Source: Alphaproteobacteria bacterium
GTDB lineage: Bacteria; Pseudomonadota; Alphaproteobacteria; Elsterales; Elsteraceae
Direction of reading: 5' to 3'
DNA length: 54,940 nucleotides
NCBI GenBank assembly: GCA_013298565.1
Contig: JAAFIC010000012.1
Coordinates: 1 to 54,940, forward strand
In this document: in pieces, positions 1,535 through 24,920 of the stretch
How positions within the stretch are numbered: position 1 is the first letter of the stretch
How the letters are laid out: each line of letters begins with the position of its first letter
The notes under the pieces: model-generated
Seen by the model: only the letters and a program-made list of their open reading frames with translations
What the model was told of the DNA's origin: nothing
The model's database searches: none
Program-made: the position numbers and the translations under genes

Positions 1535-2547
1535 TGGCGGGCGAGATCATTCTGTACACTACCGAAGACGGTTCTGCCGTCCTTCAACTGCGCGCGCACA
1601 AGGGCTCCGTTTGGCTAACGCAGGCGGAGATGGCCGAGCTTTTTCAGACGAGTGTTTCCAATATAAATAAGCATATCAAAGGGATAATCGCTGAGGGCGA
1701 ACAGCCCCCGGCAACTATTGAGCTTTACTCAAGAGTTCAAACCGAAGGACAGCGGACGATTGAACGGCAGGTGGCACATTATAGTCTGCCCATGATCCTT
1801 GCCGTCGGCTTTCGCGTTCGCAGCCCGCGTGGCGCGCAATTCCGGCGTTGGGCCGCCGCCACTCTGTCCGAGTATCTGGTCAAGGGTTTTGTCATGGATG
1901 ACGCCCGCTTGAAAGACCCGGAAGCCGATTATTTCGAGGAACTGTTGGCGCGAATCCGCGACATCCGATCTTCAGAAAAGCTCTTCTACAAGAAAATACT
2001 CGACGTTTACACCACAAGCGTGGATTACGATCCGAAGGCGGAAACCTCAAATCTGTTTTTTCAAACCGTGCAGAACAAAATGCACTGGGCCGCGCATGGC
2101 CATACTGCTGCCGAGATTGTGGTTGAGCGCGCGGATGCGAACAAGGATTACATGGGGTTGACCGCTTGGGCTGCCCAACCGAAAGGCGGACCACCGCGTA
2201 AAGCTGATGCCGTTATCGCTAAGAATTATCTGACCGGGGAAGAGCTTGAGACGCTGAACCGTATTGTCACGGCGTATTTAGAATTTGCTGAGGTGCAGGC
2301 GATGAACCGCAAGCCGATGACCATGCGCGACTGGATCGGTAAACTTGATGACTTTCTGCGCCTGAGCGACCGCGAGGTATTGAAGCACGCTGGGCGTGTT
2401 TCCGCCGAAGTGGCGACGCTGAAAAGCGGGCAGGAATTCGACCGCTGGCATCGCCGCGCAATCGAAGAACCGAGCGCGGTGGAACGACATTTTATCGAGG
2501 CAGTGGGCCGTGCTAAGACACTGGCGAAAGGCACAAAGAAGCAATGA
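1534..2547 (+). CDS. RhuM family protein
   Basis: This 337-residue protein matches the RhuM ('virulence protein RhuM') family. It has an N-terminal helix-turn-helix-like segment (VWLTQAEMAELFQTSVSNINKHI, residues about 27-49), a central Bro/KilA-like segment (LPMILAVGFRVRSPRGAQFRRWA) and a conserved C-terminal half (LFFQTVQNKMHWAAHGHTAAEI). RhuM genes are common passengers in restriction-modification and other defence islands; their biochemical role is not established. It starts inside the TGATG overlap with the methyltransferase and ends in an ATGA overlap with the next ORF, so it is part of the same transcript. It has no membrane segment or signal peptide. Its even, GC-rich composition differs from the AT-rich middle of the gene before it. 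Confidence 0.85.
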   Translation: MAGEIILYTTEDGSAVLQLRAHKGSVWLTQAEMAELFQTSVSNINKHIKGIIAEGEQPPATIELYSRVQTEGQRTIERQVAHYSLPMILAVGFRVRSPRGAQFRRWAAATLSEYLVKGFVMDDARLKDPEADYFEELLARIRDIRSSEKLFYKKILDVYTTSVDYDPKAETSNLFFQTVQNKMHWAAHGHTAAEIVVERADANKDYMGLTAWAAQPKGGPPRKADAVIAKNYLTGEELETLNRIVTAYLEFAEVQAMNRKPMTMRDWIGKLDDFLRLSDREVLKHAGRVSAEVATLKSGQEFDRWHRRAIEEPSAVERHFIEAVGRAKTLAKGTKKQ

Positions 2548-2771
2548 CCCAGGTTGTGCTCATGATTTCGGTTTCCGACGCCCACAACGATTATCTAGCC
2601 AGGGCTACCGAATTGGGCGTGCGGCCAAAACAGGAGCGCATCTACATCGGGCGGCGGTTCAAGAATGATACCGAACGGCTGGAAAAACTGTTCGATCTCT
2701 ATACGAAAATGGCGGCGGCGGCAGGCAGCGTAAAATCTGCGCCGAAATCCCGCCGAGGTGGGAGCGCGTGA
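2544..2771 (+). CDS. Chimeric mini-ORF: helicase-like N-terminus joined to a methyltransferase C-terminus
   Basis: This 75-residue ORF overlaps its neighbours at both ends (ATGA with RhuM, GTGA with the DUF1016 gene). Residues about 32-56 repeat the methyltransferase C-terminus almost exactly (direct repeat 1393-1471 / 2633-2711). Residues about 8-31 (ISVSDA...ATELGVRPKQE) resemble the start of the downstream helicase (VSVSYA...ANELGMRPMQE), and 11 bases are identical there (2566-2576 and 3845-3855). It is therefore most likely a recombination scar that joined pieces of two operon genes. It still has an open frame and coupled start and stop, so it may be translated, but no catalytic domain fits in it. 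Calling it a pseudogene would be equally reasonable. Confidence 0.6.
   Translation: MTQVVLMISVSDAHNDYLARATELGVRPKQERIYIGRRFKNDTERLEKLFDLYTKMAAAAGSVKSAPKSRRGGSA
2633..2711 (+). repeat. Direct repeat copy 2 (inside the mini-ORF)
   Basis: Second copy of the 79-base repeat at 1393-1471. The mismatches are at the codons for Phe/Phe (ttt to ttc) and Glu/Asp (gaa to gat), so the reading frame is kept. Confidence 0.95.
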
Positions 2772-3811
2772 GCGATAGCCCCGTCAGCCTCACCCTGCCC
2801 CCTGCGGGCTATGCCGACTGGCTGGCCGATCTTAAAACCCGCATTCATACGGCCCAGCAGCGGGCCACTTTGGCGGTTAACCGCGAGTTGGTGTTGCTGT
2901 ACTGGCACATCGGGCGGGATATTCTGACGCGGCAGGCGGACCAGGGGTGGGGTGCCAAGGTTATTGAGCGGCTGGCGCAGGATTTGCGGTCGGCCTTCCC
3001 GGAGATGAAGGGGTTTTCCCGCGCGAATCTGATGTACATGCGCGCATTTGCCCAAGCTTGGCCGGATGCTGACACTGTCCAACAGGCTGTTGGACAATTG
3101 CCTTGGGGCCATAACCTCGTGTTGTTGACCCGCCTAAAAGACCCGCTGCAACGCTTGGCCTACGCCCAAAGCGCCCTGGCCCATGGCTGGTCGCGCAATG
3201 TTCTGAATATCCATATCGAGACCCGCCTGCTGGAGCGCACGGGCACCGCGACTACCAATTTTGACGCGCGCTTGCCCAAACCTTATTCCGATTTGGCGCG
3301 CGAGTCTTTGAAAGACCCCTACCGCTTCGATTTTCTCGGCCTGACAGAAGAAGCGCAGGAGCGTGAGATCGAAACCGCGCTGGTGCGGCATGTGACCGAC
3401 TTTCTGCTGAAACTCGGCGCGGGCTTCGCCTTTGTCGGGCGGCAAGTGCTGCTAGAGGTAGGGGGTGAAGATTTTTTCATCGGCCTGCTTTTCTATCACC
3501 TCAAGCTGCGCTGTTATGTGGTGATCGAACTCAAGGGTGGCCCGTTCAAGCCTGAGCATCTAGGCCAATTGGGCTTCTACCTGACGGCGGTAGATCGCCA
3601 AATGAAAGCCGAACACGATAGCCCCACCATCGGTCTGCTCCTCTGCAAAAGCCGAAACAAAGTGGTGGCGGAATATGCGTTGGGCGACAAATCCCAGCCG
3701 ATGGGGATTGCCGAATATAAGCTAGCTCAATCCCTGCCTGCCGAATTTGAAACCAGCCTGCCTAGCATTGAACAAATCGAGCGTGAATTAACGAAGGATG
3801 ATGAGCCATGA
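2768..3811 (+). CDS. DUF1016 / YhcG-type PD-(D/E)XK nuclease family protein
   Basis: This 347-residue protein has the two-part DUF1016 layout. The N-terminal helical domain contains LVLLYWHIGRDIL (about 41-53) and GFSRANLMYMRAF; the C-terminal domain has the YhcG nuclease fold signature LLFYHLKLRCYVVIELK (about 240-256). The usual catalytic core is a conserved Asp in FYIDLLFYH followed by E-x-K. Here E254 and K256 are present, but the Asp position is Gly239 (codon GGC at 3482-3484, one base from GAC), so the nuclease may be inactive. Asp235 might substitute. The gene starts with GTG in a GTGA overlap with the mini-ORF and ends in ATGA with the helicase. YhcG proteins often travel with restriction-modification genes. 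Confidence 0.88.
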   Translation: MSDSPVSLTLPPAGYADWLADLKTRIHTAQQRATLAVNRELVLLYWHIGRDILTRQADQGWGAKVIERLAQDLRSAFPEMKGFSRANLMYMRAFAQAWPDADTVQQAVGQLPWGHNLVLLTRLKDPLQRLAYAQSALAHGWSRNVLNIHIETRLLERTGTATTNFDARLPKPYSDLARESLKDPYRFDFLGLTEEAQEREIETALVRHVTDFLLKLGAGFAFVGRQVLLEVGGEDFFIGLLFYHLKLRCYVVIELKGGPFKPEHLGQLGFYLTAVDRQMKAEHDSPTIGLLLCKSRNKVVAEYALGDKSQPMGIAEYKLAQSLPAEFETSLPSIEQIERELTKDDEP

Positions 3812-5871
3812 CCGGTTTGGCCGATAAGGGCGCAATTCCCACCGTTTCGGTTTCCTACGCCCGCACCGGGCGTTCGACCAAGGCCAACGAACTTGGGATG
3901 CGCCCCATGCAGGAGCAAGCCTATGGTCGGCGGGGCGAGCAATATCTGCTGATTAAATCGCCCCCGGCCTCGGGTAAAAGCCGCGCCTTGATGTTCATTG
4001 CTCTCGATAAGCTGCACCATCAGGGGCTGAAGCAGGCGATTATCGTTGTGCCCGAACAATCCATCGGCGCGAGCTTTGCCGATGAACCCCTTACCGAGTA
4101 CGGGTTTTGGGCGGATTGGACCGTGGTACCCAAGTGGAACCTCTGCAACGCCCCCGGCACCGATGGCGGCAAGGTGAATGCAGTGGGGGCTTTTTTGGCG
4201 AGTGAGGACCGCATATTGGTCTGCACCCACGCCAGCTTCCGCTTTGCCGTGGATCGCTTCGGCCTTGACGCCTTCGATGGTCGGCTGATCGCCGTGGATG
4301 AATTCCACCATGTTTCCGCCAATCCCGATAACAAGCTCGGCGCGCACTTGGGGGGCTTCATCGCCCGCGACAAGATTCACCTTGTGGCCATGACCGGTTC
4401 TTACTTCCGGGGCGATGCCGTGGCCGTGCTGACCCCGCAGGATGAGGCAAAATTCGATACCATCACCTATACGTACTACCAGCAATTGAACGGGTACGAG
4501 CATCTGAAGGCGCTCGATATCGGCTATTTCTTTTATGCGGGTTCCTATACCGATGAAATTCTGGCGGTTCTGGACCCGGACCGGAAGACGATCCTCCACA
4601 TCCCCAGCGTCAATTCCCGCGAAAGCACGAAGGATAAGATCCGCGAGGTGGAGCATATTCTGCACGCTTTGGGAACATGGGAAGGCACCGATCCCGCGAC
4701 CGGCTTCTACTGCGTTAAAACCCCGGCGGGCCGCGTGCTGCGGATCGCCGATCTGGTGGATGATAGCGACCCCCCGCGCCGGGCGCGGGTTCTGGCGGCT
4801 CTAAAAGACCCGGCGCAGAAGCACAACCGCGACCATGTGGATATCATCATCGCCCTTGGCATGGCGAAGGAAGGCTTCGATTGGATCTGGTGCGAACACG
4901 CGCTAACCATCGGCTACCGCTCTAGCCTGACGGAAATCGTGCAGATTATTGGCCGCGCAACGCGCGATGCGCCGGGAAAGCCCCGGACGAAGTTTACCAA
5001 TCTCATCGCCGAGCCGGATGCCACCGAACAGGCGGTGGTGGAAGCGGTCAACGACATGCTGAAAGCCATCGCCGCCAGCCTGTTGATGGAGCAAGTCATC
5101 AACCCCCGCTGCGAGTTTACCCCCAAGCGCGCCGACAACGGCCCCACGCCGGGGTTCGACTATGGCGACGAGGGGTATGATCCCCACCGCTGTAATATTG
5201 GGTTCAACGAGGAAAGCGGAACCTATCAGATCGAAATCAAGGGGCTTGCTGAACCCAAGAGCGAGGCGGCACAACGGATTTGCCGCGAGGATCTGAACGA
5301 GGTGATCGCGGCCTTCGTGCAGGATAAACCTTCGTTGGAACGCGGCCTGTTCGATGAAGAATTGGTTCCGGTAGAGCTAACACAACTCCGTCTCGGCAAA
5401 ATTATCCGCGACCGCTACCCGGAGTTGGACGAAGCCGATCAGGAAGCGGTGCGGCAGCACGCCATCGCTGCGCTCACCCTCACGCAAAAAGCCAAGGGGG
5501 CCGCTCTTGGCGAGGAAGATAGCGAGGTTGCAACCGGGAACACCGCTTTCATCGACGGTGTGCGGCGGTTTGTGAATGTCCGCGATCTGGATATCGACCT
5601 GATCGACAGTATCAACCCCTTCGGCGCGGCCTATGCCATTCTCTCGAAGGCGATGGATGCCGCGCGCCTCGCTCAGATCGAAGCGGTGATCGCCGCCAAG
5701 CACACGTCAATCACGCCGGAGGATGCTAAAGCCTGGGCAAAGCGCGCTGTACAGTTCAAGAAAGAGCGTGGACGCCTGCCCGCACCGACATCGGCCAATC
5801 CCTACGAACGGCTGATGGCAGAAGGGGCCGCCGCCTTCGTGCGCTTTAAGGATGACGGACGCTATGAGTGA
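3808..5871 (+). CDS. DEAD/DEAH-box superfamily 2 helicase
   Basis: This 687-residue protein carries SF2 helicase motifs in order: Walker A-like PPASGKS (about 52-58), DEFHH (164-168) as the DExH box, TGS (196-198) as motif III, and QIIGRATR (379-386) as motif VI. The C-terminal ~270 residues match no domain I recognise. It probably translocates on DNA using ATP and supplies the motor for the nuclease and methyltransferase encoded in the same operon. It starts in an ATGA overlap with the DUF1016 gene and its 3' end overlaps the GIY-YIG gene, which suggests a stoichiometric complex. The N-terminal ~30 residues resemble the start of the mini-ORF at 2544. Confidence 0.88.
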   Translation: MTGLADKGAIPTVSVSYARTGRSTKANELGMRPMQEQAYGRRGEQYLLIKSPPASGKSRALMFIALDKLHHQGLKQAIIVVPEQSIGASFADEPLTEYGFWADWTVVPKWNLCNAPGTDGGKVNAVGAFLASEDRILVCTHASFRFAVDRFGLDAFDGRLIAVDEFHHVSANPDNKLGAHLGGFIARDKIHLVAMTGSYFRGDAVAVLTPQDEAKFDTITYTYYQQLNGYEHLKALDIGYFFYAGSYTDEILAVLDPDRKTILHIPSVNSRESTKDKIREVEHILHALGTWEGTDPATGFYCVKTPAGRVLRIADLVDDSDPPRRARVLAALKDPAQKHNRDHVDIIIALGMAKEGFDWIWCEHALTIGYRSSLTEIVQIIGRATRDAPGKPRTKFTNLIAEPDATEQAVVEAVNDMLKAIAASLLMEQVINPRCEFTPKRADNGPTPGFDYGDEGYDPHRCNIGFNEESGTYQIEIKGLAEPKSEAAQRICREDLNEVIAAFVQDKPSLERGLFDEELVPVELTQLRLGKIIRDRYPELDEADQEAVRQHAIAALTLTQKAKGAALGEEDSEVATGNTAFIDGVRRFVNVRDLDIDLIDSINPFGAAYAILSKAMDAARLAQIEAVIAAKHTSITPEDAKAWAKRAVQFKKERGRLPAPTSANPYERLMAEGAAAFVRFKDDGRYE

Positions 5872-7042
5872 GGATGATCTCGACGATCTGCGCGCCGAAC
5901 TGAGCGACTATGCCGCGCCGCAGAAGCAAGGGGGCCGAACAGCGCGGGAAGAGCGGATCATCGCCGGATTCGAGGAAATCCAGCGCTTCGTCGATGACCA
6001 TAGCCGCGTGCCGCAGTATGGGGACGACTGCGATATTTTCGAGCGGCTTTACGCCGTTCGCCTCGACCGGATTCGCGCTCAAGCCGATTGTCGCACCCTG
6101 CTGGAACCCCTGGATCATCAAGGCTTGCTGACCGCATCCGAGGTGAATTCCTCCGATGATACGCTCAGTGATGATGAACTTCTGGCGGAATTAGGGGGGC
6201 TGAAGGGCGCGGCGGAGAGCGTAACCACCCTGCGCCACGTTCGCTCCGGCGCCGAAAAGCGTGCCGCCGAGGATGTCGCGGCCCGCACCGCCTGCGCGGA
6301 CTTCGACCGTTTCGCCCCGTTGTTTCGGCAGGTTCAAGCCGATCTCGAAGCGGGCCTTCGGTCCGCCCGTCCTTTCGAGTTGAAATCGGAAATCGAAACC
6401 GGGCGGTTCTTCATCGTCGGTGGACAGAAGGCTTATGTGGCCGAAAAAGGGGAAGAATTCACCAATGCGAACGGGCAGCGCGAGGCGCGCCTGCGGGTGA
6501 TCTTCGATAACGGCACAGAGAGCAACCTGCTCATGCGCTCGCTGCAACGGGCCTTGAACGATGATCGGGCGGGACGCCGAATTTCAGACCCCGAAGCAGG
6601 ACCGCTCTTCGCCGGGGTCCGCGCGGAAGGCGACGTGCCAAGCGGCATTGTCTACGTTCTACGCAGTAAGTCCGACCATCCGGTTGTGGCCCAAAACCGC
6701 GACCTTATTCACAAAATCGGCGTCACCACCGAGAGTGTGGAGCGGCGTGTCGCCGGGGCGAACCTCCAGCCCACCTTTCTCATGGCGAGTGTCGAGGTGG
6801 TCGCGAGCTATACCCTCTACCACATCCACCGCAACAAGCTGGAAGCGCTGATTCACCGTGTTTTCGCTTCGGCGCGGCTGGAAATAGAAATTCCCGACCG
6901 GTTTGGACGTCTCGTTGCTCCAGAGGAATGGTTCCTCGTTCCGCTGTTCGTCATTGATGAAGCCGTCGAACGGATCAAAGATGGCACGATCACCAATTAC
7001 ATCTACGACCCAAGCCTAGCGCGGCTAGAGCGTCTTGCGTAA
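5864..7042 (+). CDS. GIY-YIG nuclease family protein (T5orf172/Mug113-like)
   Basis: This protein has 392 residues from ATG 5864. That start is preferred over ATG 5852 because AAGGA (5848-5852) lies 11 bases before it. The C-terminal ~130 residues form a GIY-YIG-type domain: GIVYVLR (about 261-267), HKIGVT, an Arg pair (ERRV) and the metal-binding Glu in NKLEALIH, ending with EEWF. The N-terminal region (REERIIAGFEEIQRFVDDH, VPQYGDD.DIFERLYAVRLDR) is of a type I recall next to helicases of this kind. It is predicted to cut or nick DNA. The last codons and the TAA stop (7040-7042) lie inside the left arm of the intergenic repeat at 7026-7326, so the repeat appears to have replaced the native C-terminus. 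Confidence 0.85.
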   Translation: MSEDDLDDLRAELSDYAAPQKQGGRTAREERIIAGFEEIQRFVDDHSRVPQYGDDCDIFERLYAVRLDRIRAQADCRTLLEPLDHQGLLTASEVNSSDDTLSDDELLAELGGLKGAAESVTTLRHVRSGAEKRAAEDVAARTACADFDRFAPLFRQVQADLEAGLRSARPFELKSEIETGRFFIVGGQKAYVAEKGEEFTNANGQREARLRVIFDNGTESNLLMRSLQRALNDDRAGRRISDPEAGPLFAGVRAEGDVPSGIVYVLRSKSDHPVVAQNRDLIHKIGVTTESVERRVAGANLQPTFLMASVEVVASYTLYHIHRNKLEALIHRVFASARLEIEIPDRFGRLVAPEEWFLVPLFVIDEAVERIKDGTITNYIYDPSLARLERLA

Positions 7043-13887: not shown

Positions 13888-14814
13888 ATGCGTGATCCGT
13901 ACGAGGTTTTAGGCGTGTCCCGAACGGCGGATGCGGATGCGATTAAAAGCGCGTACCGCAAGCTCGCTAAACAGTTTCACCCGGACGTTAATCCGGGCGA
14001 TAAGGGGATTGAAACCAAGTTCAAAGATATTTCGGCAGCCCATGACCTGCTGTCGGACCCGGAGAAGCGCGCGCGCTACGACCGGGGTGAAATTGATGGG
14101 GGCGGCAACGAGCGCCCCCGCGCCAAGCGTGCGGGGGCTGGCGCGGGCGGCTTCGGCGGGTTCGGCGGCTTTGGCGGCTTCGGCCAAAAGGGCAACGGCG
14201 GGTTCGATTTTGATGCCGATGATATTTTCGATGGGTTCCGCACGCGCGGCAATACGGGCAGCGCGGGTAAACGCCGAGGGGCCGATGTTTCCTACGGCTT
14301 AACAATAGATTTCGTTACGGCAGCCAACGGCGGCAAGCGCCGCGTAACCACTGCCGATGGCCGCTCGCTGGACGTTAATATCCCTCCAGGCACGGAAGAT
14401 TCCAATAAGCTGCGCCTGCGCGGCCAAGGCCAACCCGGTTTCAACGGCGGGCCGGAAGGCGATGCCTTTATCGAAATCCATGTTGATGCCCATCCGTTCT
14501 TCGTGGCCAAGGGCAAGGATATTCACCTAGAAGTACCGGTCACGCTGCAAGAGGCCATTCTCGGTGCCTCGGTAACAGTGCCGACGATTGATGGGCGCGT
14601 TGCCGTAAAAGTGCCGCGCGGCTCCAACTCCGGCAGCATCTTACGCCTGCGCGGCAAAGGTATTCCCAGCAAAGACGGCGCGCACGGCGACCAATACGTG
14701 AAACTTGTGGTCATGCTTCCCGAAAAACTCGACCCGGAGCTTGCGAGCTTCCTCGAAAAATGGGGGCCGAAAAACCCCTACGAGGTTAGAGGTAAGCTGA
14801 ACGGCTTGGGCTAG
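13888..14814 (+). CDS. DnaJ-class chaperone without zinc finger (CbpA-like)
   Basis: This 308-residue protein has an N-terminal J domain ([18 protein letters not shown]...) with the HPD motif at about residues 31-33 (FHPDVNPGD). A Gly/Phe-rich linker (about 85-115) follows, with repeated GGFGGFG units. The C-terminal domains ([43 protein letters not shown]) bind clients. The Cys-rich zinc-finger of true DnaJ is absent, so it is a class B/CbpA-type co-chaperone of DnaK. It starts with ATG at 13888 and is divergent from pdxH, a common alphaproteobacterial pairing. Confidence 0.93.
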
Positions 14815-14913: not shown

Positions 14914-15501
14914 ATGGTGAAGGCTTGGGTCATCGCAGTAGGGCTAGGGGCTTTGGTTCCAACGGCGGTTTTAGCGCAAACTTGGTCCGAAGCAAAACCC
15001 ATCAATAAAGATGAATCCCCGCTGGAGCTAAAGCTACAGGGCTGGGGAAAAGCTGCAATCAAAACGGCGCGCCAAGCTATCGGCGAAACGGATGACCGAC
15101 GAGGTACATCTTACTTCCATAGTGTCTTTTATCAAAACCAGAGCTATGAAGCCTATGTAAGTTTTCACGAAGCGGCACATTTTGTTAATTGGAACCAGAA
15201 TACTATTCAAAATATTACCAAGCGTTACTTCAAGGAAGACGATATTGAGTTCGGCTCCTACATCGACGTGGATCATGGCCGCGCAGATTATCGGACCATT
15301 CCGTTAAAATTCACTAAAAACGGAAAAGCGGTAAACTGCTGGACCTTCCGCGCCTACTGGGATCGCTTCTCGTCCGATGGCTATCTCTGCTCACGCACGA
15401 GCACGCCTGCCTCGGAAGCCATTATCCGCACCTTCATCACTCACATCGCCTATAAAACGGTGCTAGAGCCGAAGGACGAGGCCGCGTTACCAACGCCGTA
15501 A
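14914..15501 (+). CDS. Exported protein of unknown family (paralogue A)
   Basis: This 195-residue protein has a Sec signal peptide (KAWVIAVGLGALVPTAVLA, probable cleavage before QTWSEA). I do not recognise a named domain. Its C-terminal part has a pattern shared with the proteins at 22609-23277 and 23288-23992: Cys-x2-FRAYW, then a Gly-Tyr-Leu-Cys, then Pro...A and a THI motif. The two Cys could form a disulfide in the periplasm. The middle region differs from the other two, so it is the divergent member. It is a single gene following an AT-rich intergenic stretch after the DnaJ-like gene. Confidence 0.7.
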   Translation: MVKAWVIAVGLGALVPTAVLAQTWSEAKPINKDESPLELKLQGWGKAAIKTARQAIGETDDRRGTSYFHSVFYQNQSYEAYVSFHEAAHFVNWNQNTIQNITKRYFKEDDIEFGSYIDVDHGRADYRTIPLKFTKNGKAVNCWTFRAYWDRFSSDGYLCSRTSTPASEAIIRTFITHIAYKTVLEPKDEAALPTP

Positions 15502-15634
15502 CGGACCAGCGCGCACTCTATCGTGTCAAGGCGCAGGCGGCCTAAGTCAAGGTAGGGATTGAAGCGATAGGGTGTAACTTCTCTCCTGATCAGGGCGAAC
15601 TGAGCCTAAGTGTCCCAGAGAAGAGAGGCCCGCC

Positions 15635-16081
15635 ATGTCCCCCACTCTTACCCGCCTGCTGCCGTGGCCGCCCGCGCTGTTTATCGCTTGGGTTTTCATC
15701 TGGTATCTTCAATATAAATTCACGGGCCACCCCGGCAGTGTGTATCTTTTCGATATTCTAACGAAGTGGCTTGGGTTCGAGGGCTATGAAGCTGTTATGC
15801 GGATTGGCACCGGCACGCTGGAACTTATCGCCTCGTTGCTCGTTCTCTACCCGCGCACACAGGCCATCGGCGGCTTAATGTCCACGGGCATTATGACCGG
15901 CGCGATTTTCTTTCACATCGCCAGCCCACTGGGCATTGACCCGTATAACGACGGGGCCGATCTGTTTAAGAAAGCCTGCGCGGTTTGGGTGTTGGGTCTC
16001 TTCATCGCCTTCCTGCGCCGGGATGATCTCGTGGCTTTGTGGGCGCTCTTCCGCGCAAAACGCCCCGCGACTGCTGGCTAA
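15635..16081 (+). CDS. DoxX-like small integral membrane protein
   Basis: This 148-residue protein has four predicted membrane segments (about 10-25, 55-75, 78-97, 115-130). The pattern of TGTLELIASLLVLYPRTQAIGGLMSTGIMTGAIFFH is like DoxX/YphA-type proteins. The exact function is unknown; DoxX relatives associate with redox or thiol metabolism. A purine-rich GAGAGG site lies six bases before ATG 15635. The downstream OpgC-like gene begins 13 bases after its stop with a strong Shine-Dalgarno site that overlaps the stop codon, so the two form an operon. Confidence 0.75.
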   Translation: MSPTLTRLLPWPPALFIAWVFIWYLQYKFTGHPGSVYLFDILTKWLGFEGYEAVMRIGTGTLELIASLLVLYPRTQAIGGLMSTGIMTGAIFFHIASPLGIDPYNDGADLFKKACAVWVLGLFIAFLRRDDLVALWALFRAKRPATAG

Positions 16082-16094
16082 GGAGGTCCGTCCC

Positions 16095-17261
16095 GTGTCC
16101 GTCGCGCTTGAAACCTTGGCTCTTGCGGCAGAAAAATCCCTGGCAACAAAACCTTTGGCAATCCCAACGCGCGCGCGCGACCCACGGTTGGATGTTGTGC
16201 GCGGCATTGCCCTGTTCATCATCTTTATCGCGCATGTGCCGAGCAACTGGCTGTGGAGCCTGATCCCCGCCCGTTTTGGCCTAAGCGATGCCACCGATAG
16301 CTTCGTGTTCATCTCCGGCATTGCCTCGGCCATTGCTTTCGGTGGTACGTTTCTACGGCATGGGTTTTGGACGGGGACCGGGCGAATTGTTTACCGTTGC
16401 GCGCAACTGACCGTCGCTCACCTGTTCTTAGTCTTCGCGATTATCGGCGTCGCCTATCAAGGCGGGTTGCTGACGGGCCGCGATTTAGTCGGGGCTTTGG
16501 GCGTCGAACATCTGCTCGCTCATCCGGCGCAAGCGATTTCCGAAGCGTTCTGGCTGCACTGGGTGCCCGCATCGCTTGATATCATGCCGGTCTATATCGT
16601 GCTGCTGGCGATGGTGCCGGGCATGATGCTGCTGGAAAAGCTAGATCGGCGGTTGCCGCTGCTGGCGTCCCTTACTCTCTACCTTGCCAATGCCGCCTAT
16701 GGCCTCGATCCGATTGCCGATAGCGCAACCGGGCGGCAGTGGCTGCTAAACCCGTTTGCGTGGCAGGCGATCTTTTTCCTCGGCTTTGGCTTCAAGCGCG
16801 GCTGGCTGCCGGTGCCGCCGCGCACGCTGGTTTTGACGATTCTCGCGTGGGGAATGATCGCGGTCGGCGTGATTTTTCGGGTTCTACCGGATGGCTTCGG
16901 CCTCGGTGATGCGCCTTTGTGGCAGGCTTTGGGCGCGCAGCTTGATAAAACCAACGTCGATCTCTTCCGCCTCGCTCATTTCCTCGCCACGGCCTATCTG
17001 CTGCACGGGCTGTTGCTGGCAAAGCCGGGGATTGCGTGCGCGGTAGTGCTTCGGCCCTTCGAGCGGCTGGGACAACAGGGGCTGTCGGTGTTCGTCGGCG
17101 GCATGATCGCAGCCAATATCGCCGGGCTTATCATTCTGACCGTAGGCGATGGGTTGGTGGGGCAAGTCCTCATCAACCTCGGCGGCTTTCTGGCGCTCTA
17201 TGGCATCGCCCGGCTGATGGCCTGGTATAAATCGGCCCCGTGGGGTGTTAAGAAGGCTTAA
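16095..17261 (+). CDS. OpgC-family membrane acyltransferase-like protein
   Basis: This 388-residue polytopic membrane protein has about ten hydrophobic segments. It opens with DPRLDVVRGIALFIIFIAHVP, the OpgC/acyltransferase-3 start, with the conserved Arg and His, and continues DATDSFVFISGIASAIAFGG, a strong OpgC match. OpgC proteins transfer succinyl groups to periplasmic glucans in other bacteria; the substrate here is unknown. The start is GTG 16095, because AAGGAGGT (16080-16087) precedes it; the frame is open further upstream only inside the DoxX-like gene. Its stop overlaps the convergent esterase gene by four bases. Confidence 0.87.
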   Translation: MSVALETLALAAEKSLATKPLAIPTRARDPRLDVVRGIALFIIFIAHVPSNWLWSLIPARFGLSDATDSFVFISGIASAIAFGGTFLRHGFWTGTGRIVYRCAQLTVAHLFLVFAIIGVAYQGGLLTGRDLVGALGVEHLLAHPAQAISEAFWLHWVPASLDIMPVYIVLLAMVPGMMLLEKLDRRLPLLASLTLYLANAAYGLDPIADSATGRQWLLNPFAWQAIFFLGFGFKRGWLPVPPRTLVLTILAWGMIAVGVIFRVLPDGFGLGDAPLWQALGAQLDKTNVDLFRLAHFLATAYLLHGLLLAKPGIACAVVLRPFERLGQQGLSVFVGGMIAANIAGLIILTVGDGLVGQVLINLGGFLALYGIARLMAWYKSAPWGVKKA

Positions 17262-18139
17262 CCCGCGCAAGCTTTCAGGCGCGGACCAAGCCACGCAAGC
17301 GCGTCGGCTAGTCCCTGCCGCCAGGTGCCCCAGGAATGCCCGCCGTCGATCACCCGGAACTCGGACGCCAGCCCCAAGCGTTGCACCTCGATATGCAGCT
17401 TGGCACTGCCAACCAAAATTGAGGGATAATCATCATCCCCCGCCGCGAACCACAGATCGGGGCGCGGGCCGGGTGCCGGTAACGCCGCCAAGGCCAGGAA
17501 CGGGTTGGCGGCATTGTAGCGGGCAGGCTCTATCGGTTGACCAAACACGGCCCCGAACATGCGAAACCGCGCCAAGACTGATGGATCGGCGTTCGGCGGC
17601 ACAGGATCGAACAGACTACCCGACAGGCTGATGATGGTGCCGTAACGGTCCGGGTGACGCAGCCCCTGCAAAACCGCGCCAAGCCCGCCCATCGACAGAC
17701 CCGCAACCGCCCGGCCCGTGCGGCAGGCGTGCGTGGGGAGCTTGGCATCAATGGCCGGAATTAAATCGTCAGATAAGGTGGTGGCGACTGGCCCGAACGC
17801 TTCGCTATCGACATACCAGCTATTACCGACGCCGGGCATGACCGCGAACAGCGGCGGGATCACCCCCCCGGCAATGGCACTATCGAGCACCTCAGCAACC
17901 CGGCCCGGCCCCGGCCAGTCGGTCTCGTCCCCGCGCAGGCCGTGGTAGAGATAGAGAACGGGCAAACGGCCTGTCCCCGCCTCCGGCGCATAGAGTTGAT
18001 AGGGCAACGCCCGCCCCAAGCGGGAGTTCCCAAGCGTCTCGGCGGTAATCCGCCCCCCTGCCCACGCGGGTGCCGCTAACAGCACTCCCGCGAGCAGAAG
18101 GGGCAGCACCCTAGAAGGCACCACGATAGGCGTTCGCAT
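17258..18139 (-). CDS. Secreted esterase-D/feruloyl-esterase-like alpha/beta hydrolase
   Basis: This protein has 293 residues from ATG 18139 (a start 15 bases earlier is possible). A signal peptide (LPLLLAGVLLAAPAWAGG) is followed by an alpha/beta hydrolase: oxyanion region LYLYHGLRGDETDW, nucleophile elbow GLSMGG (Ser), the acid in WFAAGDDDYPS, and catalytic His in DGGHSWGTW. It resembles putative esterases of the esterase D/antigen 85 group. It probably acts on esters in the periplasm. It overlaps the 3' end of the TPP-enzyme gene and ends a four-gene minus-strand operon. Confidence 0.82.
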   Translation of the reverse strand: MRTPIVVPSRVLPLLLAGVLLAAPAWAGGRITAETLGNSRLGRALPYQLYAPEAGTGRLPVLYLYHGLRGDETDWPGPGRVAEVLDSAIAGGVIPPLFAVMPGVGNSWYVDSEAFGPVATTLSDDLIPAIDAKLPTHACRTGRAVAGLSMGGLGAVLQGLRHPDRYGTIISLSGSLFDPVPPNADPSVLARFRMFGAVFGQPIEPARYNAANPFLALAALPAPGPRPDLWFAAGDDDYPSILVGSAKLHIEVQRLGLASEFRVIDGGHSWGTWRQGLADALAWLGPRLKACAG

Positions 18140-19730
18140 CGACCGCCGCCGCAATCAGACTAAAGCCATCGGCGGCGATTGCCCGTCCTAGCGCCGCGCG
18201 CAGAGCTTCAACACTGTCAACCGTCTCGCCCGCGCCGCCGAACGCCCGCGCCAAGGCGGCATAATCGGTGCGCCCCATCGCAACCCCAGCGGGCGCGAGA
18301 CCCGCTTGCGCCTGCTTAAGCGCGATTAAAGCAAGGCTAACATCTTGCACAACCAGCACGACCACCTTCAGCCCGGCATCGCGCACGGTACCAAGCTCGC
18401 CCAAGGTCATCTCTAACCCGCCGTCGCCCATAATCGCGATGATCGGACCCGGCACGCCTGCGCGCGCCGCGCCAATTGCCAGCGGCAAGGCCGCCCCCAT
18501 CGTACAAAACCCCGCCGACTGCAATACCGAGAGGGGCCGCTGCGCCTGCCACATCTGGCTGAACAGAATGCGATGCGCGCCACTATCGACGGTCACGGTC
18601 GCACTCTCCGGCAAGGCCGCGTGCAAGGCGGCGAACACGGCGTGCGGCCCCCACGCTGTCGGCGGCGCGAAGAAAGTGTGCAGTGCCGCCCGTGTCGTCC
18701 CCACTTGCCCTGCGGCCCAGCGCGGCGGCGGCGCGCTTTTCCCCAAGGCCCAGTTGAGTGCCGCAATCGTGCCCGGCAGTGGCCCGATGACCTGCTGGTC
18801 GATGCGGTGCATCCCGTGATCGGCAGGATATGCTGTGAGGTCGATCACTTGGGCGGTCGCGGGAAACGCATCACACCAACCCACGCGCATTTCGATGGGA
18901 TCGTAGCCGATTGTCAGGATCAGATCGGCCTTGGCGATGAGGTCCAGCAACAGCGTATCGGCTTTCGGCGACAGGCCCGCGCCGCCTAAGCTGAGGGGAT
19001 GATCTTCCGGCACTAGCCCCTTCGCCTTATAAGTCGTGATGACCGGAATGCGCTGTTGGTCCATCAGCAACGTCATTGCGGCTGCCGCCCCGCAGCGTGC
19101 TGCCTCGAACCCCGCCAGGATGATTGGGTGGCGGCTATGGGCGATCTTATCGGCCACCGCGCGCATTATAGGATCATCCCCCGCCGGAACCGGATGCAGC
19201 CGCACCGGCGGCTTAACGGGGTGGGACGCAGCGGGTGCATCTTGCGCCGCCAGTGCGGGCGACAGATCAATATGCACTGGCCCCGCTGGCGCACGCACAG
19301 CCAGCGCGAGCGCACGGGCAATGGTTTCTGCCGCGCCCTCTGCCGCAATCTCGAAGCTCGCTTTTACCAACGGGCGCAACAAGGCAGCATGATCGAGAAT
19401 TTGATGGGTATAGCGCCCACGCACGCCGTGCTCGACGATGCCGGAAATAATCAGCAGCGGCACTTGCTCCTGCTGCGCGTCGGCAATCCCGTTCACCGCA
19501 TTGGCAAGGCCCGGCCCCAGCGTGGTGAGCAGTAGACCGGGCGCACCCGTGACTGCCGAAGCCCCCGCCGCCATCATCGCCGCCGCTGTTTCGTTCCGGG
19601 CGAGCGTGAAGGCGATTCCGGCGGCGTTCAGCGCGTCCAGCATCGTCACTACCTCGCCGCCCGGCATCCCGAAGGCGTGGCGAACGCCGTGCGCCGAAAG
19701 GGTCTGGGCGATCAAATCGGCAATCCGCAT
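18111..19730 (-). CDS. Thiamine-pyrophosphate-dependent enzyme, acetolactate-synthase-like
   Basis: This 539-residue protein starts MRIADLIAQTLSAHGV one base after the stop of the CoA-transferase gene, hence is coupled. The N-terminal domain has the catalytic Glu in LARNETAAAMMAAG, the middle domain is NAD/FAD-like, and the C-terminal TPP/Mg site is GDGGLEMTLGELGTVRDAG, where the usual second-site Asn pair is replaced by QD (VVQDVS). It belongs to the acetolactate synthase/benzoylformate decarboxylase superfamily, but the substrate cannot be told from sequence. The CoA-transferase neighbour recalls oxalyl-CoA decarboxylase systems, yet the N-terminal motifs do not match that enzyme. Confidence 0.82.
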   Translation of the reverse strand: MRIADLIAQTLSAHGVRHAFGMPGGEVVTMLDALNAAGIAFTLARNETAAAMMAAGASAVTGAPGLLLTTLGPGLANAVNGIADAQQEQVPLLIISGIVEHGVRGRYTHQILDHAALLRPLVKASFEIAAEGAAETIARALALAVRAPAGPVHIDLSPALAAQDAPAASHPVKPPVRLHPVPAGDDPIMRAVADKIAHSRHPIILAGFEAARCGAAAAMTLLMDQQRIPVITTYKAKGLVPEDHPLSLGGAGLSPKADTLLLDLIAKADLILTIGYDPIEMRVGWCDAFPATAQVIDLTAYPADHGMHRIDQQVIGPLPGTIAALNWALGKSAPPPRWAAGQVGTTRAALHTFFAPPTAWGPHAVFAALHAALPESATVTVDSGAHRILFSQMWQAQRPLSVLQSAGFCTMGAALPLAIGAARAGVPGPIIAIMGDGGLEMTLGELGTVRDAGLKVVVLVVQDVSLALIALKQAQAGLAPAGVAMGRTDYAALARAFGGAGETVDSVEALRAALGRAIAADGFSLIAAAVDANAYRGAF

Positions 19731-19731
19731 A

Positions 19732-20997
19732 TCAAGCCTCCGAAGGGGCGGCGGCCCCAAAGGCCCCGCGCGTAGTGAAATCCTGAAGCTCTTCCGCACT
19801 GAGGCCCAGCATCTCCGTCATTACCGCGTGCCGATCTTGATCGAGATGCGGCGGCGGGCGGTCGTAGGCCACGGGCGTGCGGCTGAACTTCAGCGGGTTC
19901 CCGAGCAACCGAACCGGCCCGGTATCCCCCGGCCCATCCAGCGTCACCACCATCTCACGCGCCTTGGTGTGGGGGTTGTCAAGGGCTTCCGCAATGCTGG
20001 CCACCGGCCCTGCGGGGACTTGGCAGCGCGCCAAGCGCGCCGACCACCCCGCCACGGTATCACCCGCAAGCACCGGCAGTAGGGCTTCTTCCAAGGCATC
20101 GACGGCGCTAATGCGATCGCGGTTGCGGCGAAAGCGCGGATCGTCGGCCAGCGACGGCACCCCAAGCTCGGTCACAAAGCGGCGAAACTGCTCATCATTG
20201 CCCACAGCCACCACAATATACCCATCGGCCACCGGATAGGTTTGATAAGGGGCGATATTGGGGTGGCGATTGCCCAAGCGCTGCGGCACGCGGTCTGACA
20301 CCAGATAATTGGTGGCGGCATTAATCAGCCAGGAGAGTTGGGAATCATAGAGGGCGAGATCAATACTCTGCCCCTCGCCCGTCGCATCGCGGTGCCGAAG
20401 CGCCGCCAGCAGGCCAACCGTGGCGTAAAGCCCGCAAACGACATCGGCAATCCCAACGCCAACCTTCACCGGCTCCCCGCCCTTGGCATCGGGCTGACCG
20501 GTAATGCTCATGATTCCGCCCATCGCCTGTACCAGAAAATCATAGCCGATACGGTCGGAATACGGCCCCGTTTGACCAAAGCCGGAAATGGAGCACCAGA
20601 TTAGATCGGGTTTCACCTGCCTCAGCGCCGAATAATCGAGGCCCCGCCGCGCCAGATCCCCCGGTTTATAGTTTTCGATCACCACATCGGCAGTCGCCAC
20701 CAAGCGCCGGATAAGATCGGCCCCCGCGTCTGTCGCAAGATCAATAGCAACTGACTGCTTATTGCGATTGGCGCAAAGGTAATAGGCCGATAGGTCCGTC
20801 TCCTGCCCCCCAGCATTCTGAACGAACGGCGGCCCCCAGGTGCGGGTATCGTCGCCGGTGCCAGGGCGTTCGATCTTGATGACTTCCGCCCCCAAATCGC
20901 CCAGCAACTGCGTGCAGGTTGGCCCTGCCAGAATCCGCGATAAATCGAGCACGCGCACGCCCGCAAGGGCGCGGGGGGACAGGGGGGAAGCCGTCAT
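19732..20997 (-). CDS. CaiB/BaiF family (class III) CoA-transferase
   Basis: This 421-residue protein moves CoA between carboxylic acids. Family features include VRVLDLSRILAGPTCTQLLGDLGAEVIKIE, the CANRNKQS segment, the active-site Asp near VENYKPGDLARRGLDY, and SGFGQTGPYSDRIGYDFLVQAMGG. The physiological acid is unknown; formyl-CoA:oxalate, succinyl-CoA:mesaconate and carnitine enzymes share the fold. It lies 15 bases after the TPR gene and one base before the TPP-enzyme start, all on the minus strand. Confidence 0.92.
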   Translation of the reverse strand: MTASPLSPRALAGVRVLDLSRILAGPTCTQLLGDLGAEVIKIERPGTGDDTRTWGPPFVQNAGGQETDLSAYYLCANRNKQSVAIDLATDAGADLIRRLVATADVVIENYKPGDLARRGLDYSALRQVKPDLIWCSISGFGQTGPYSDRIGYDFLVQAMGGIMSITGQPDAKGGEPVKVGVGIADVVCGLYATVGLLAALRHRDATGEGQSIDLALYDSQLSWLINAATNYLVSDRVPQRLGNRHPNIAPYQTYPVADGYIVVAVGNDEQFRRFVTELGVPSLADDPRFRRNRDRISAVDALEEALLPVLAGDTVAGWSARLARCQVPAGPVASIAEALDNPHTKAREMVVTLDGPGDTGPVRLLGNPLKFSRTPVAYDRPPPHLDQDRHAVMTEMLGLSAEELQDFTTRGAFGAAAPSEA

Positions 20998-21012
20998 GCA
21001 AACTCGCTAAAC

Positions 21013-22386
21013 TCAGGCGTGATGCCGCCACTGCGACGGCCCGTGTGCTACGGTAGCGGGGGCTGGAGCCGTCGCCAAGGTCTGAAACATCCGCTCGGCG
21101 AAGCGATCTACCCGCCGCCGCTCCGCGCGCATTCGTAGCAGGGTTGCGGCTTCCTTGCGATTGCCCTGCCGGGCGGCACTCTGGGCGAGGGCGCGCATGA
21201 ATACATCGCGCTGGGCATGACTGCCACCGAGCAGCGGCAGGCGCTCGGCAAGCTCCGGCAAATCGAGGCGCGGACGCTGCCCTTGCGCCGCCCGCAGCAG
21301 GGTTTGCGCCAGATCGCGCGCCACCAGGGCCGCAACGCGGGCTTGATCGCCCTCGCCTTCTGCCCGCGCGCCGATCATGGCCACGCACTCATGCGCGCTG
21401 GCAAAATCGCCGGTTGCGAGCAACGACAAGAGATGATGCAGGGCCGCGAACATCAACGTGCCATCGGTTTTGCGCTGGCGTGCCCGCTCCGCCAACTCTC
21501 CCCAGCGCGTGCCGACAGCGGTGCCCTGTTCGGCCAAGCGCCACAACAGGGAGGCGGCGTTGGTGATGTCGCGGAAATCATCGGTCGAATGGGCGCGAAT
21601 TTCGGTATCATAGAGGTGCAACGCCACGTCGGCCTCGCCCTGCTCCAGGTGAAATAGGCCCTGATGCCACGCGAGATGATAGGCAAAATTGTTGCAGCCG
21701 GTCCAAGACGCGCGCTGCTGATTGATCCAAGCAATGCCATCGGCGGGTTGGTGGCGCATTTCATACACATGAGCGACGGCATGAATGCCCCAAGCGTCTT
21801 TCGGCTCGGCCAAAGTGGCGGCGCGGCCCGTGCGCTCGGCCTCCTCATAACGCCCGGCTTCTTCCAGCCCAAAGGCATGACAGCCGAGGAAATAGCCGTA
21901 GCCATCCAGCGCCGGATCATAGGCCGGGGCGAGGGCTTCCGTGCATTTCAACATGCCCGCGAGGTCGCCCACCATGAAGCGCAGCGCGTGGCTGAGTTTC
22001 AGCGGCAGAAACACGGTCGGGCGCGCGTCGGTAATCGTTTCCAACAAATCGGCAGCAGTGTGGAATTTGCCTTCGGTGGCGCGGCGCAGGGCGAACACCA
22101 GCAAGGTTTCATCTTCCGAGCCGCCGCCCTTGGCCTGAAGCGCCTGTTCTGCCGACAACAGCGCCGCCTCCGCCCCAAGCTGAAGCTCCGAGCGGGCGAG
22201 AATAACTTGCGCGAACCCCTTCAAACAGTGCGCGGCCACCAACTGCGGATCGGCGGCCAGCGCCTCAGCCAAAGCCGCGCCCGCGCCAGGACGATGGGCC
22301 GCCACCTCATCGGTCGCGCGCTCGAAAGCAGCGATAGCGTCGGGATGCTCGGCGGTATGAGCCAGCCGGAAGATATCTTGGATCAT
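21013..22386 (-). CDS. TTC38-like tetratricopeptide repeat protein
   Basis: This 457-residue, fully helical protein resembles the TTC38 family, with conserved parts such as LKLSHALRFMVGDLAGML, DGYGYFLGCHAFGLEEAGRYEEAE and DAWGIHAVAHVYEMR and the motif NFAYHLAWHQGLFHLE. Members are cytosolic proteins of unknown function. It starts after an AGGAG site and is the first gene of a four-gene operon with the CoA-transferase, TPP enzyme and esterase. A short tandem GC-rich repeat lies just upstream. A role as partner or organiser for these enzymes is only inferred. Confidence 0.82.
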   Translation of the reverse strand: MIQDIFRLAHTAEHPDAIAAFERATDEVAAHRPGAGAALAEALAADPQLVAAHCLKGFAQVILARSELQLGAEAALLSAEQALQAKGGGSEDETLLVFALRRATEGKFHTAADLLETITDARPTVFLPLKLSHALRFMVGDLAGMLKCTEALAPAYDPALDGYGYFLGCHAFGLEEAGRYEEAERTGRAATLAEPKDAWGIHAVAHVYEMRHQPADGIAWINQQRASWTGCNNFAYHLAWHQGLFHLEQGEADVALHLYDTEIRAHSTDDFRDITNAASLLWRLAEQGTAVGTRWGELAERARQRKTDGTLMFAALHHLLSLLATGDFASAHECVAMIGARAEGEGDQARVAALVARDLAQTLLRAAQGQRPRLDLPELAERLPLLGGSHAQRDVFMRALAQSAARQGNRKEAATLLRMRAERRRVDRFAERMFQTLATAPAPATVAHGPSQWRHHA

Positions 22387-22404
22387 CTCACGCTCCTGGG
22401 GTCG

Positions 22405-22432
22405 GGCCTGGGGTGGGGCCTGGGGTGGGGCC
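22405..22432. repeat. 12-bp tandem repeat upstream of the TPR gene
   Basis: GGCCTGGGGTGG occurs twice in tandem and is followed by a partial third copy (GGCC). It lies just before the ribosome-binding region of the minus-strand TPR gene. Copy-number change here might affect its expression; that is inference. Confidence 0.7.
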
Positions 22433-22608
22433 GATGATTGGCGCGCTCTGATTCTGGTTCGCCAAGACGTGAGGGAAGGTTACACAGAAACCTGTGGGGT
22501 AATGGCGGCACGCTCTAATCGTGCCCGGCCCTACCCGTTCAACGAGATCGTCTGGACCAACCCATATCGGAAATGCGATGGTTGCATCGAATTTTGCGGA
22601 GGTCCCGG

Positions 22609-23277
22609 ATGCTGCGCTTTATGCTTCTCGCGGGTGTTTTGATCCTGAGCCTTTCCGGGTCCGAGACCGAAAAAGCGCTGACGGCGTGCGAGGAGCATGA
22701 TTTTAAGAAATTTCGCGCACCGCCCATAGACACGATCATGACGAGAAATCCCGGCGAGTTCGATATTGAGCCATCTAAAGCCGAGCTACGCTTTTATCTC
22801 GAAGATTGGAATGACGCATTAAAGCGCGCGGTGAATGGCGTAGGCACTCAATTAACATTCTGGGAGTATAGCTGGTCAGAAACGCAAAATTACTGTTTTT
22901 ACCATCGCGCATCTTCTCGCATGGGTCGCAGAAATATTATATATCATCCCATTGAGAGAGGCGCGGAAACAATTTTTGAGTCCGAAACTACAGAAATTAT
23001 CAAAAAAGATACGTTTCTTATTAATAATAAGAATTATGAAACATTGTATTTAATATACACATTGAGAAATAAAAAAAATTATTGCACCATATTTCGAGCA
23101 TCATGGGAGGGAGAAGAACAGCCAATTTCCTCAGGCGGTGTATATGGCTTTCTCTGCACCTCAAAGAACCGACCGATGCCTCCCGATGCTCTTGAAACGA
23201 TGTTGACGCATATCACGCATTTGCTCGGCCCCTCCGATCCGCCGCTAGACATCGGCACCATGCCGGTCCCTCAGTAA
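22609..23277 (+). CDS. Exported protein of unknown family (paralogue B)
   Basis: This protein has 222 residues from ATG 22609, chosen because GGAGG at 22598-22602 lies six bases before it. A signal-like N-terminus (LRFMLLAGVLILSLSGS) is followed by TACEEHDFKKFRAPP, shared almost exactly with the next gene. Further shared parts are EYSWSET..YC and the C-terminal core NYCTIFRASW...GFLC...MPPDAL..MLTHI. I know no named domain. The centre (about 22960-23110) is AT-rich compared with the rest of the window, a sign of foreign origin or relaxed selection. It is separated by only 10 bases from its paralogue, so they form an operon. Confidence 0.72.
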   Translation: MLRFMLLAGVLILSLSGSETEKALTACEEHDFKKFRAPPIDTIMTRNPGEFDIEPSKAELRFYLEDWNDALKRAVNGVGTQLTFWEYSWSETQNYCFYHRASSRMGRRNIIYHPIERGAETIFESETTEIIKKDTFLINNKNYETLYLIYTLRNKKNYCTIFRASWEGEEQPISSGGVYGFLCTSKNRPMPPDALETMLTHITHLLGPSDPPLDIGTMPVPQ

Positions 23278-23287
23278 GGCTGCCGCA

Positions 23288-23992
23288 ATGATTCGATACT
23301 TTGCCCTTCCTCTCTGCCTCGGATTGATGGGGTACCAAAACGGCACAACCTCCCTCTCCGTACCGGCACAACCGAGTCCCCAAACCGCCTGCGAAGAGCA
23401 CGACCGGGAAAACTTTAAAGCGCCGCCGAAAAGAATATTCCTACCCCCCAATAACGGTGTCTTCGACATTTCACCCGAGCATGCGAGAATCGGATTTTAT
23501 TTTAAGGAATGGTACAATGCGCCCAAGCGGGTAATAAGGGGCCGGACCGGCGATGGAGCCGTTTGGCAATATAGCTGGTCTGAAACCGACGATTACTGCC
23601 TATTTCATATCAATTACGTTCATCTAAAAGCCGTTTTTAAACCAGATAGCGATATTTTAAAAACTAATATCAATTTCGGCATAATAGACACGCTACAGCG
23701 TGAAAATTTACAAGCTTTAGGTAAAAATTACGAGGTCTTGCACGCGACATTCATAAAAAATGGCGCAACCAATTATTGTAGCCAATTCCGTGCCTATTGG
23801 CGTGATGAGAATAAGTATGATGATCTATGGCAGAATATGGCTTCCGGTTGGCTCTGTACGTCGCGTCACCGCACCATGCCGCCGGACGCGCTGAAAATAC
23901 TGCTCACCCATATCATCGACAAGTCCGCCGAAGAAGGGGTGCCGCTACCGCAGGAGATTGTTCGCATGCCCACCCCTGGCAAGGTGCCATAG
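23288..23992 (+). CDS. Exported protein of unknown family (paralogue C)
   Basis: This 234-residue protein has an N-terminal hydrophobic segment (MIRYFALPLCLGLMG), then TACEEHDRENFKAPP, QYSWSETDDYC and the C-terminal core NYCSQFRAYW...SGWLCTSRHRTMPPDAL..LLTHI. It is a tandem duplicate of the preceding gene and a distant relative of the one at 14914. The conserved Cys pairs suggest an exported, disulfide-bonded fold. The Cys in PLCLG could be a weak lipobox, but the consensus is poor. The function is unknown. The gene ends 109 bases before fabI. Confidence 0.72.
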   Translation: MIRYFALPLCLGLMGYQNGTTSLSVPAQPSPQTACEEHDRENFKAPPKRIFLPPNNGVFDISPEHARIGFYFKEWYNAPKRVIRGRTGDGAVWQYSWSETDDYCLFHINYVHLKAVFKPDSDILKTNINFGIIDTLQRENLQALGKNYEVLHATFIKNGATNYCSQFRAYWRDENKYDDLWQNMASGWLCTSRHRTMPPDALKILLTHIIDKSAEEGVPLPQEIVRMPTPGKVP

Positions 23993-24101: not shown

Positions 24102-24920
24102 ATGGTCTCTGCTGCTCCCCTGATGCACGGTAAACGCGGGCTGGTTATGGGCCTCGCCAACGATAAATCAATTGCCTGGGGCATTTCGCAGGCGCTGGCC
24201 GCCCACGGGGCGGAGTTGGCCTTCACCTTCCAGGGCGATGCGCTGGAAAAGCGCGTGCGGCCCTTGGCGGCGCAACTGGGCGCGACGGAAATCATGCCCT
24301 GCGATGTGAGCGACCTAGGCTCGGTCGATGCCGTGTTCGCCCATCTCGAAAAAGTGTGGGGCAAGCTCGATTTCGTTGTTCACGCTATCGGCTTTTCTAA
24401 TAAGGAAGAGTTGAAGGGCAAGTACGTCGATACCAGCCTCGATAATTTCCTGATGACAATGAATATCTCGGTCTATTCCTTCACTGCTGTTGCCCAGCGG
24501 GCGGCGAAGTTGATGACCAACGGCGGCAGTCTGCTCACCCTCACCTATTACGGCGCAGAACGGGTAATGCCGCATTACAATGTGATGGGCGTGGCGAAAG
24601 CGGCGCTGGAATCTTCCGTTCGCTATCTTGCCGTCGATTTAGGCGGGCAGAATATCCGCGTCAACGCTCTGTCGGCAGGCCCGATGAAGACGCTCGCGGC
24701 GTCGGGCATTGGCGACTTCCGCTATATTCTGAAATGGAACCAGTATAACTCGCCGCTAAAGCGCAATACCACCTTGGAAGACGTGGGCGGCTCGGCGCTG
24801 TATTTACTGTCCGACCTTTCCAGCGGCGTTACGGGCGAAACCCATCACGTCGATAGCGGCTATCATGTGGTCGGCATGAAGGCCGTGGACGCGCCCGACA
24901 TTAATGTTTCAAAGGACTAA
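24102..24920 (+). CDS. fabI: Enoyl-[acyl-carrier-protein] reductase (NADH)
   Basis: This 272-residue atypical SDR enzyme catalyses the last reduction of each fatty-acid elongation cycle. The NADH-binding start is [20 protein letters not shown], and the catalytic pair is Tyr and Lys in Y-N-V-M-G-V-A-K (Y-x6-K), preceded by the other FabI Tyr (LTYYGAERV). [15 protein letters not shown] is the substrate-binding loop. The gene is followed after five bases by aroC, which has its ribosome-binding site inside the fabI 3' end; fabI-aroC linkage is common in alphaproteobacteria. Confidence 0.96.

Follow-up and report, generated by a model that had tools for sequence, protein, structure and literature searches.

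Three paralogous genes of Elstera code for putatively exported proteins of a lineage-restricted family with a likely Mog1/PsbP/DUF1795 fold

Folds of the Mog1/PsbP kind are widespread in protein–protein interaction domains (PMC3792639). DcrB is a membrane-anchored periplasmic protein of the Mog1p/PsbP type (PMC7716261), the Eag chaperones of the DUF1795 type wrap the transmembrane helices of effectors (PMC12881460), and Tsi3, which blocks a muramidase, has distant similarity to Mog1p and PsbP (PMC3792639). Here these systems are compared with the products of three genes, paralogues A, B and C, found in the window, i.e. the whole 54,940-nucleotide stretch of DNA analysed, which derives from the genome of a freshwater Elstera bacterium. 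The genes and the AT-rich parts of the tandem pair are:

14914..15501, + strand: paralogue A (195 aa), with a signal segment (VLA^Q), a predicted PsbP/Mog1-like domain and Cys142/Cys159
22609..23277, + strand: paralogue B (222 aa), with four cysteines, a signal segment, TACEEHD, YSWSET..YC and the Cys/GxLC core at the C-terminus
22896..23110, + strand: AT-rich interior of B, GC 0.32, with blocks down to 0.20
23288..23992, + strand: paralogue C, 234 aa; four cysteines outside the signal segment
23601..23780, + strand: AT-rich interior of C, GC 0.32

An in-frame ATG is also present upstream of B, at 22573. Since GGAGG directly precedes 22609, the sequence favours the latter position as the start of B, and the protein translated from it opens straight with the hydrophobic segment. 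The gap between B and C is 10 bp, so the two probably form one operon. The initial annotation had described the tandem copies as AT-rich inside, in agreement with the GC content of 0.20–0.38 in 60-bp blocks versus 0.60 for the window, and had assigned a hydrophobic export segment to all three proteins. Such N-terminal segments are indeed present, weakest in C; the export call is in each case made from hydropathy alone, with no trained predictor.

B and C align over their full length with 34% identity (BLASTP, E 2e-44). Paralogue A, the membership of which had been left open to refutation by a lack of significant alignment, matches B with E 2e-7 and C with E 6e-8, in both cases confined to the C-terminal 70–85 residues; sequence alignment of A with B/C is poor in the first 120 residues. 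Scoring the pairs against 1000 shuffles gave z values of 68 (B/C), 11.7 (A/C) and 10.7 (A/B), with no shuffle scoring as high, and profile–profile comparison of the A subfamily with the B/C subfamily gave a probability of 97.4% (E 1.5e-11), the C-terminal 71 columns being the only part aligned. The reported succession of Cys, FRA(Y/S)W, GxLC, P..A and THI was recovered in this order in A, B and C, as were TACEEHD and YSWSET..YC in the tandem pair. With relatives added, only two cysteines, the glycine of G-x-x-C, one isoleucine and two prolines are invariant. FRAYW is replaced by YRAYW or FTGVF and GxLC by GxIC, while the THI motif is missing from the most distant member. In these alignments, the core that stays invariant across the wider set is Cys...Gly-x-x-Cys rather than the whole FRAYW/THI pattern, and every full-length member combines a signal-like segment with this C-terminal core in one alignment. 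As judged from their sequences, A, B and C are three paralogues of one family, related by common descent. Comparison of C with its orthologue in E. litoralis yielded dN 0.17, dS 1.02 and dN/dS 0.16, against a dN/dS of about 0.04–0.06 for the adjoining fabI and dnaJ. Thus, C is constrained, yet it changes several times faster than its neighbours; this supports a real gene under purifying selection with fast protein change.

The surroundings of the three genes include two conserved neighbours and one protein without a Pfam family:

13888..14814, + strand: DnaJ-like gene with DnaJ and DnaJ_C domains; conserved to the left of A
21013-22386, - strand: 457-aa protein with no Pfam match at E 0.001
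24102..24920, + strand: enoyl-ACP reductase of the FabI type; conserved to the right of B/C or of the copy at the corresponding position

The 457-aa protein lies between A and B/C together with a weakly DoxX-like gene, an OpgC-like gene, an esterase, a TPP enzyme and a CoA-transferase. Elsewhere in the window, a likely defence cluster occupies positions 2-7042 (+ strand). It starts with part of a Type IIG restriction enzyme-methyltransferase (PADLOC, 3.6e-159), cut by the contig start, followed by a PDC-S05 gene (RhuM type) and a PDC-S02 gene (DUF1016/nuclease type), and ends with helicase-like and GIY-YIG-like genes that have no PADLOC matches.

Apart from three Elstera genomes, the only genome to yield relatives was one other from the same bacterial family (G004), in line with the suggestion that these are lineage-specific genes. 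In two other Elstera genomes, an orthologue of A likewise follows the dnaJ-like gene. One of these, G002, holds two A-type copies with 50% mutual identity, the first after the dnaJ-like gene (L009, 1468-2046) and the second before fabI (L012, 1501-2085). In E. litoralis, a fragment of A follows dnaJ and an orthologue of C with 71% identity precedes fabI, both of them cut by contig ends. Both positions are occupied in each Elstera genome and are consequently common to all three. On the fabI side, one species has an A-type copy and two have B/C-type copies, and this difference between G002 on the one hand and the window and E. litoralis on the other suggests either replacement or separate loss. 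In the tree, B/C stand apart from the rest with full support, and the root is unsure owing to a long branch. Beyond these, neither 385 genomes from the class, nor a largely overlapping set of 386 relatives, nor 398 genomes of the phylum yielded a convincing relative. Weak matches outside the family (in G363, G133, G263, G123, G280 and others) overlap thiolase-like, formate-THF-ligase-like or other unrelated genes, or cross stops, and were put down to chance. A scan of genome contigs returned the truncated E. litoralis copy as its sole match. Plasmid records and viral contigs yielded no relatives, so that an origin from mobile elements is unsupported.

The initial annotation had found no named domain in these proteins, and the profile searches likewise assigned them to no known sequence family. 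For the A, B, C family, all Pfam, NCBIfam and PADLOC models stayed below their cut-offs, and a sequence search of the PDB returned nothing. Matches to DnaT, DUF2002, UxuA and UL25 (Pfam/NCBIfam) concerned scattered members only, far under the cut-offs, and were discarded. PF08786 gave no match in seven members even at E 10, nor did any other profile of a Mog1/PsbP-fold family match by sequence. The accompanying implication that the proteins are of no known kind was not supported by the structure prediction that had also been suggested, as the models of both A and C point to the Mog1/PsbP/DUF1795 fold. AlphaFold2 was run on mature C and on the following part of A, with an alignment made up of the three window sequences in each case:

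14977..15498, + strand: mature part of A as modelled, predicted Mog1/PsbP-like topology

The mean pLDDT was 54 for A, reaching about 70–74 in residues 91-140 of the model, and 53 for C. Both low-confidence models agree in a beta-beta-alpha-beta4-alpha topology, with an antiparallel sheet flanked by helices. For A, the top matches from Foldseek and VIA were EagT6, SciW, PA94 (1tu1), Mog1, PsbP and DcrB (Z 10.4-9.4; SciW: Z 10.4, rmsd 4.0, 133 aligned; DcrB: Z 10.2, rmsd 3.5, 114 aligned). For C, they were Apa, the Rv0999 orthologue, PsbP, DcrB, SciW and LpqN (Z 8.9-8.1; Apa: Z 8.9, rmsd 3.4, 126 aligned; DcrB: Z 8.6, rmsd 3.0, 109 aligned), and matches outside the Mog1/PsbP/DUF1795 fold begin near Z 5.7. 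The top Foldseek TM-scores were 0.4–0.5 (A) and about 0.3–0.4 (C). Most of the top matches of the two models are proteins that we take to be of the Mog1/PsbP/DUF1795 fold. The low model confidence leaves room for doubt: with pLDDT values of 53-54, a thin alignment common to both models and no sequence-level support, the match could be an artefact of strand-rich models, and the genes would then represent a secreted family, specific to this lineage, with a different fold. We regard this as unlikely, albeit deserving of some weight, because A and C, two diverged proteins with about 22% identity, converge on one topology and the same superfamily tops both structure searches. The models thus make it likely that the family has the Mog1/PsbP/DUF1795 fold, as a divergent member of a known superfamily.

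All seven sequences (7/7) keep both the cysteine preceding FRAYW and the cysteine of GxLC. Full-length members have exactly two (A type and G004) or four (B and C) cysteines outside the signal segment, counts that would fit an oxidised periplasmic protein. In the A model, Cys121 and Cys138 (mature numbering, equal to Cys142 and Cys159) lie opposite each other on strands 117-128 and 131-139. Similarly, residues 133 and 159 of the C model are nearly opposite, within about one step, on strands 129-140 and 150-160. The invariant cysteines are hence predicted to stand opposite one another in the last beta-hairpin and to form a disulfide.

The domain in G004 carries a signal segment and was detected using A alone (E 5.9e-6); an hhalign comparison with a profile of A-type proteins only gave a probability of 96.3% and E 2e-9. 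In this relative (L011, 455-2079) the domain is followed by a DUF4189-like region, below cut-off, and a Trypsin_2 region in another, overlapping frame; the frame break may be a draft sequencing error or a real gene defect. The location of the domain ahead of a trypsin-like protease suggests a protein-binding or protease-partner duty. Taken further, the domain could serve secreted trypsin-like proteases as a partner or as an inhibitory module, acting in trans on a separate protease in Elstera. The hhalign match and the domain order in G004 are consistent with such a role, as is a stand-alone protease in the window's genome, which shares 45% identity with the trypsin region of G004. Still, the fusion is a single case with the frame broken between domain and trypsin part, other Elstera genomes have no matching protease at E 1e-5, and the domain is absent from the other proteins related to the G004 protease; we therefore consider this role improbable. 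The same low standing is given to the broader proposal that a new sequence family of exported, disulfide-pinned proteins restricted to the Elstera family, occurring both as separate paralogues and N-terminal to a trypsin-like protease, constitutes a periplasmic protease-partner system specific to this lineage. The stand-alone protease (L035, 892-2184, - strand; C55 of the window's own genome) has a hydrophobic segment near its N-terminus and no N-terminal domain.

The fold would also be compatible with orphan periplasmic immunity proteins, tandem, fast-evolving and AT-rich, that block toxins of competing bacteria in the manner of the T6SS immunity protein TplEi. TplEi, of similar fold, is among the structural matches (Z 7.9 for C, 6.9 for A), the distant resemblance of Tsi3 to Mog1p and PsbP (PMC3792639) points in the same direction, and tandem duplication with fast divergence under purifying selection would be in keeping with it. 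Conversely, no toxin-like gene was found among the neighbours from dnaJ to fabI, which are metabolic or household genes and one protein without a Pfam match; the two chromosomal positions, after dnaJ and before fabI, are kept across species, and PADLOC gave no match. The T6SS sheath gene (PF05943, VipB/TssC) is likewise missing from all three Elstera genomes (0/3), although the target could still belong to foreign attackers. In combination, these observations make an immunity function very unlikely.

Protease partnership and orphan immunity are weaker rivals of periplasmic binding. With moderate confidence we favour an exported periplasmic, lineage-restricted family, probably of the Mog1/PsbP/DUF1795 fold, which is pinned by a disulfide and acts by binding. 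A, B and C would be exported to the periplasm via the N-terminal segment, where Cys142 and Cys159 of A would be oxidised to a disulfide across the last beta-hairpin; B and C would have an additional, second cysteine pair. By analogy with other domains of this fold the proteins would have no active site and would function by binding rather than catalysis, the target possibly being a protein or a hydrophobic segment, so that they might act as scaffolds for an envelope protein or as its chaperone-like partners. From these analogies we infer that a periplasmic binding or scaffold function is most likely. The analysis offers a testable fold for proteins left blank by sequence databases, a modest, lineage-specific gain in annotation. 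It also raises the possibility that the PsbP/Mog1/DcrB fold may drift until profiles no longer register any similarity, leaving a cysteine pair as the chief invariant core, and the protease link, if true, would hint at a novel means by which secreted proteases are steered.

Among known systems, DcrB/DUF1795 (PF08786; Salmonella DcrB, 6e8a) resembles the window proteins in predicted topology, in inferred periplasmic location and in being a single small domain, with Z values of 10.2 (A) and 8.6 (C). They differ from DcrB in carrying an invariant cysteine pair and in lacking a clear lipobox where the export segment ends; their sequences do not match, and PF08786 was found in none of the 31 genomes searched (Elstera and other relatives). 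As regards the lipid-modified cysteine of DcrB, the candidates LTAC (B) and QTAC (C) precede EEHD well past the hydrophobic segment, and A has none. The Eag T6SS chaperones of the DUF1795 type (EagT6, SciW) are the best Foldseek matches of the A model. However, Eag proteins serve T6SS effectors, whereas the window proteins carry export segments and Elstera has no TssC/VipB; a role as Eag chaperones was rejected, as the lack of the sheath gene excludes it. PsbP/CyanoP (2xb3) is a fold relative of the models (Z 9.8 for A, 8.7 for C) with no sequence similarity. Sequence similarity is likewise absent for the secreted mycobacterial domains LpqN, MTC28 and Apa, which have this fold but belong to another phylum; among the VIA matches of the C model, Apa ranks first (Z 8.9). 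For the trypsin-like secreted proteases that have a DUF4189-like region, the connection is G004, where the domain precedes such a region, while the window proteins have no protease part. Most likely, then, the fold superfamily is the known element, and the new one is an unnamed, lineage-restricted sequence family within it.
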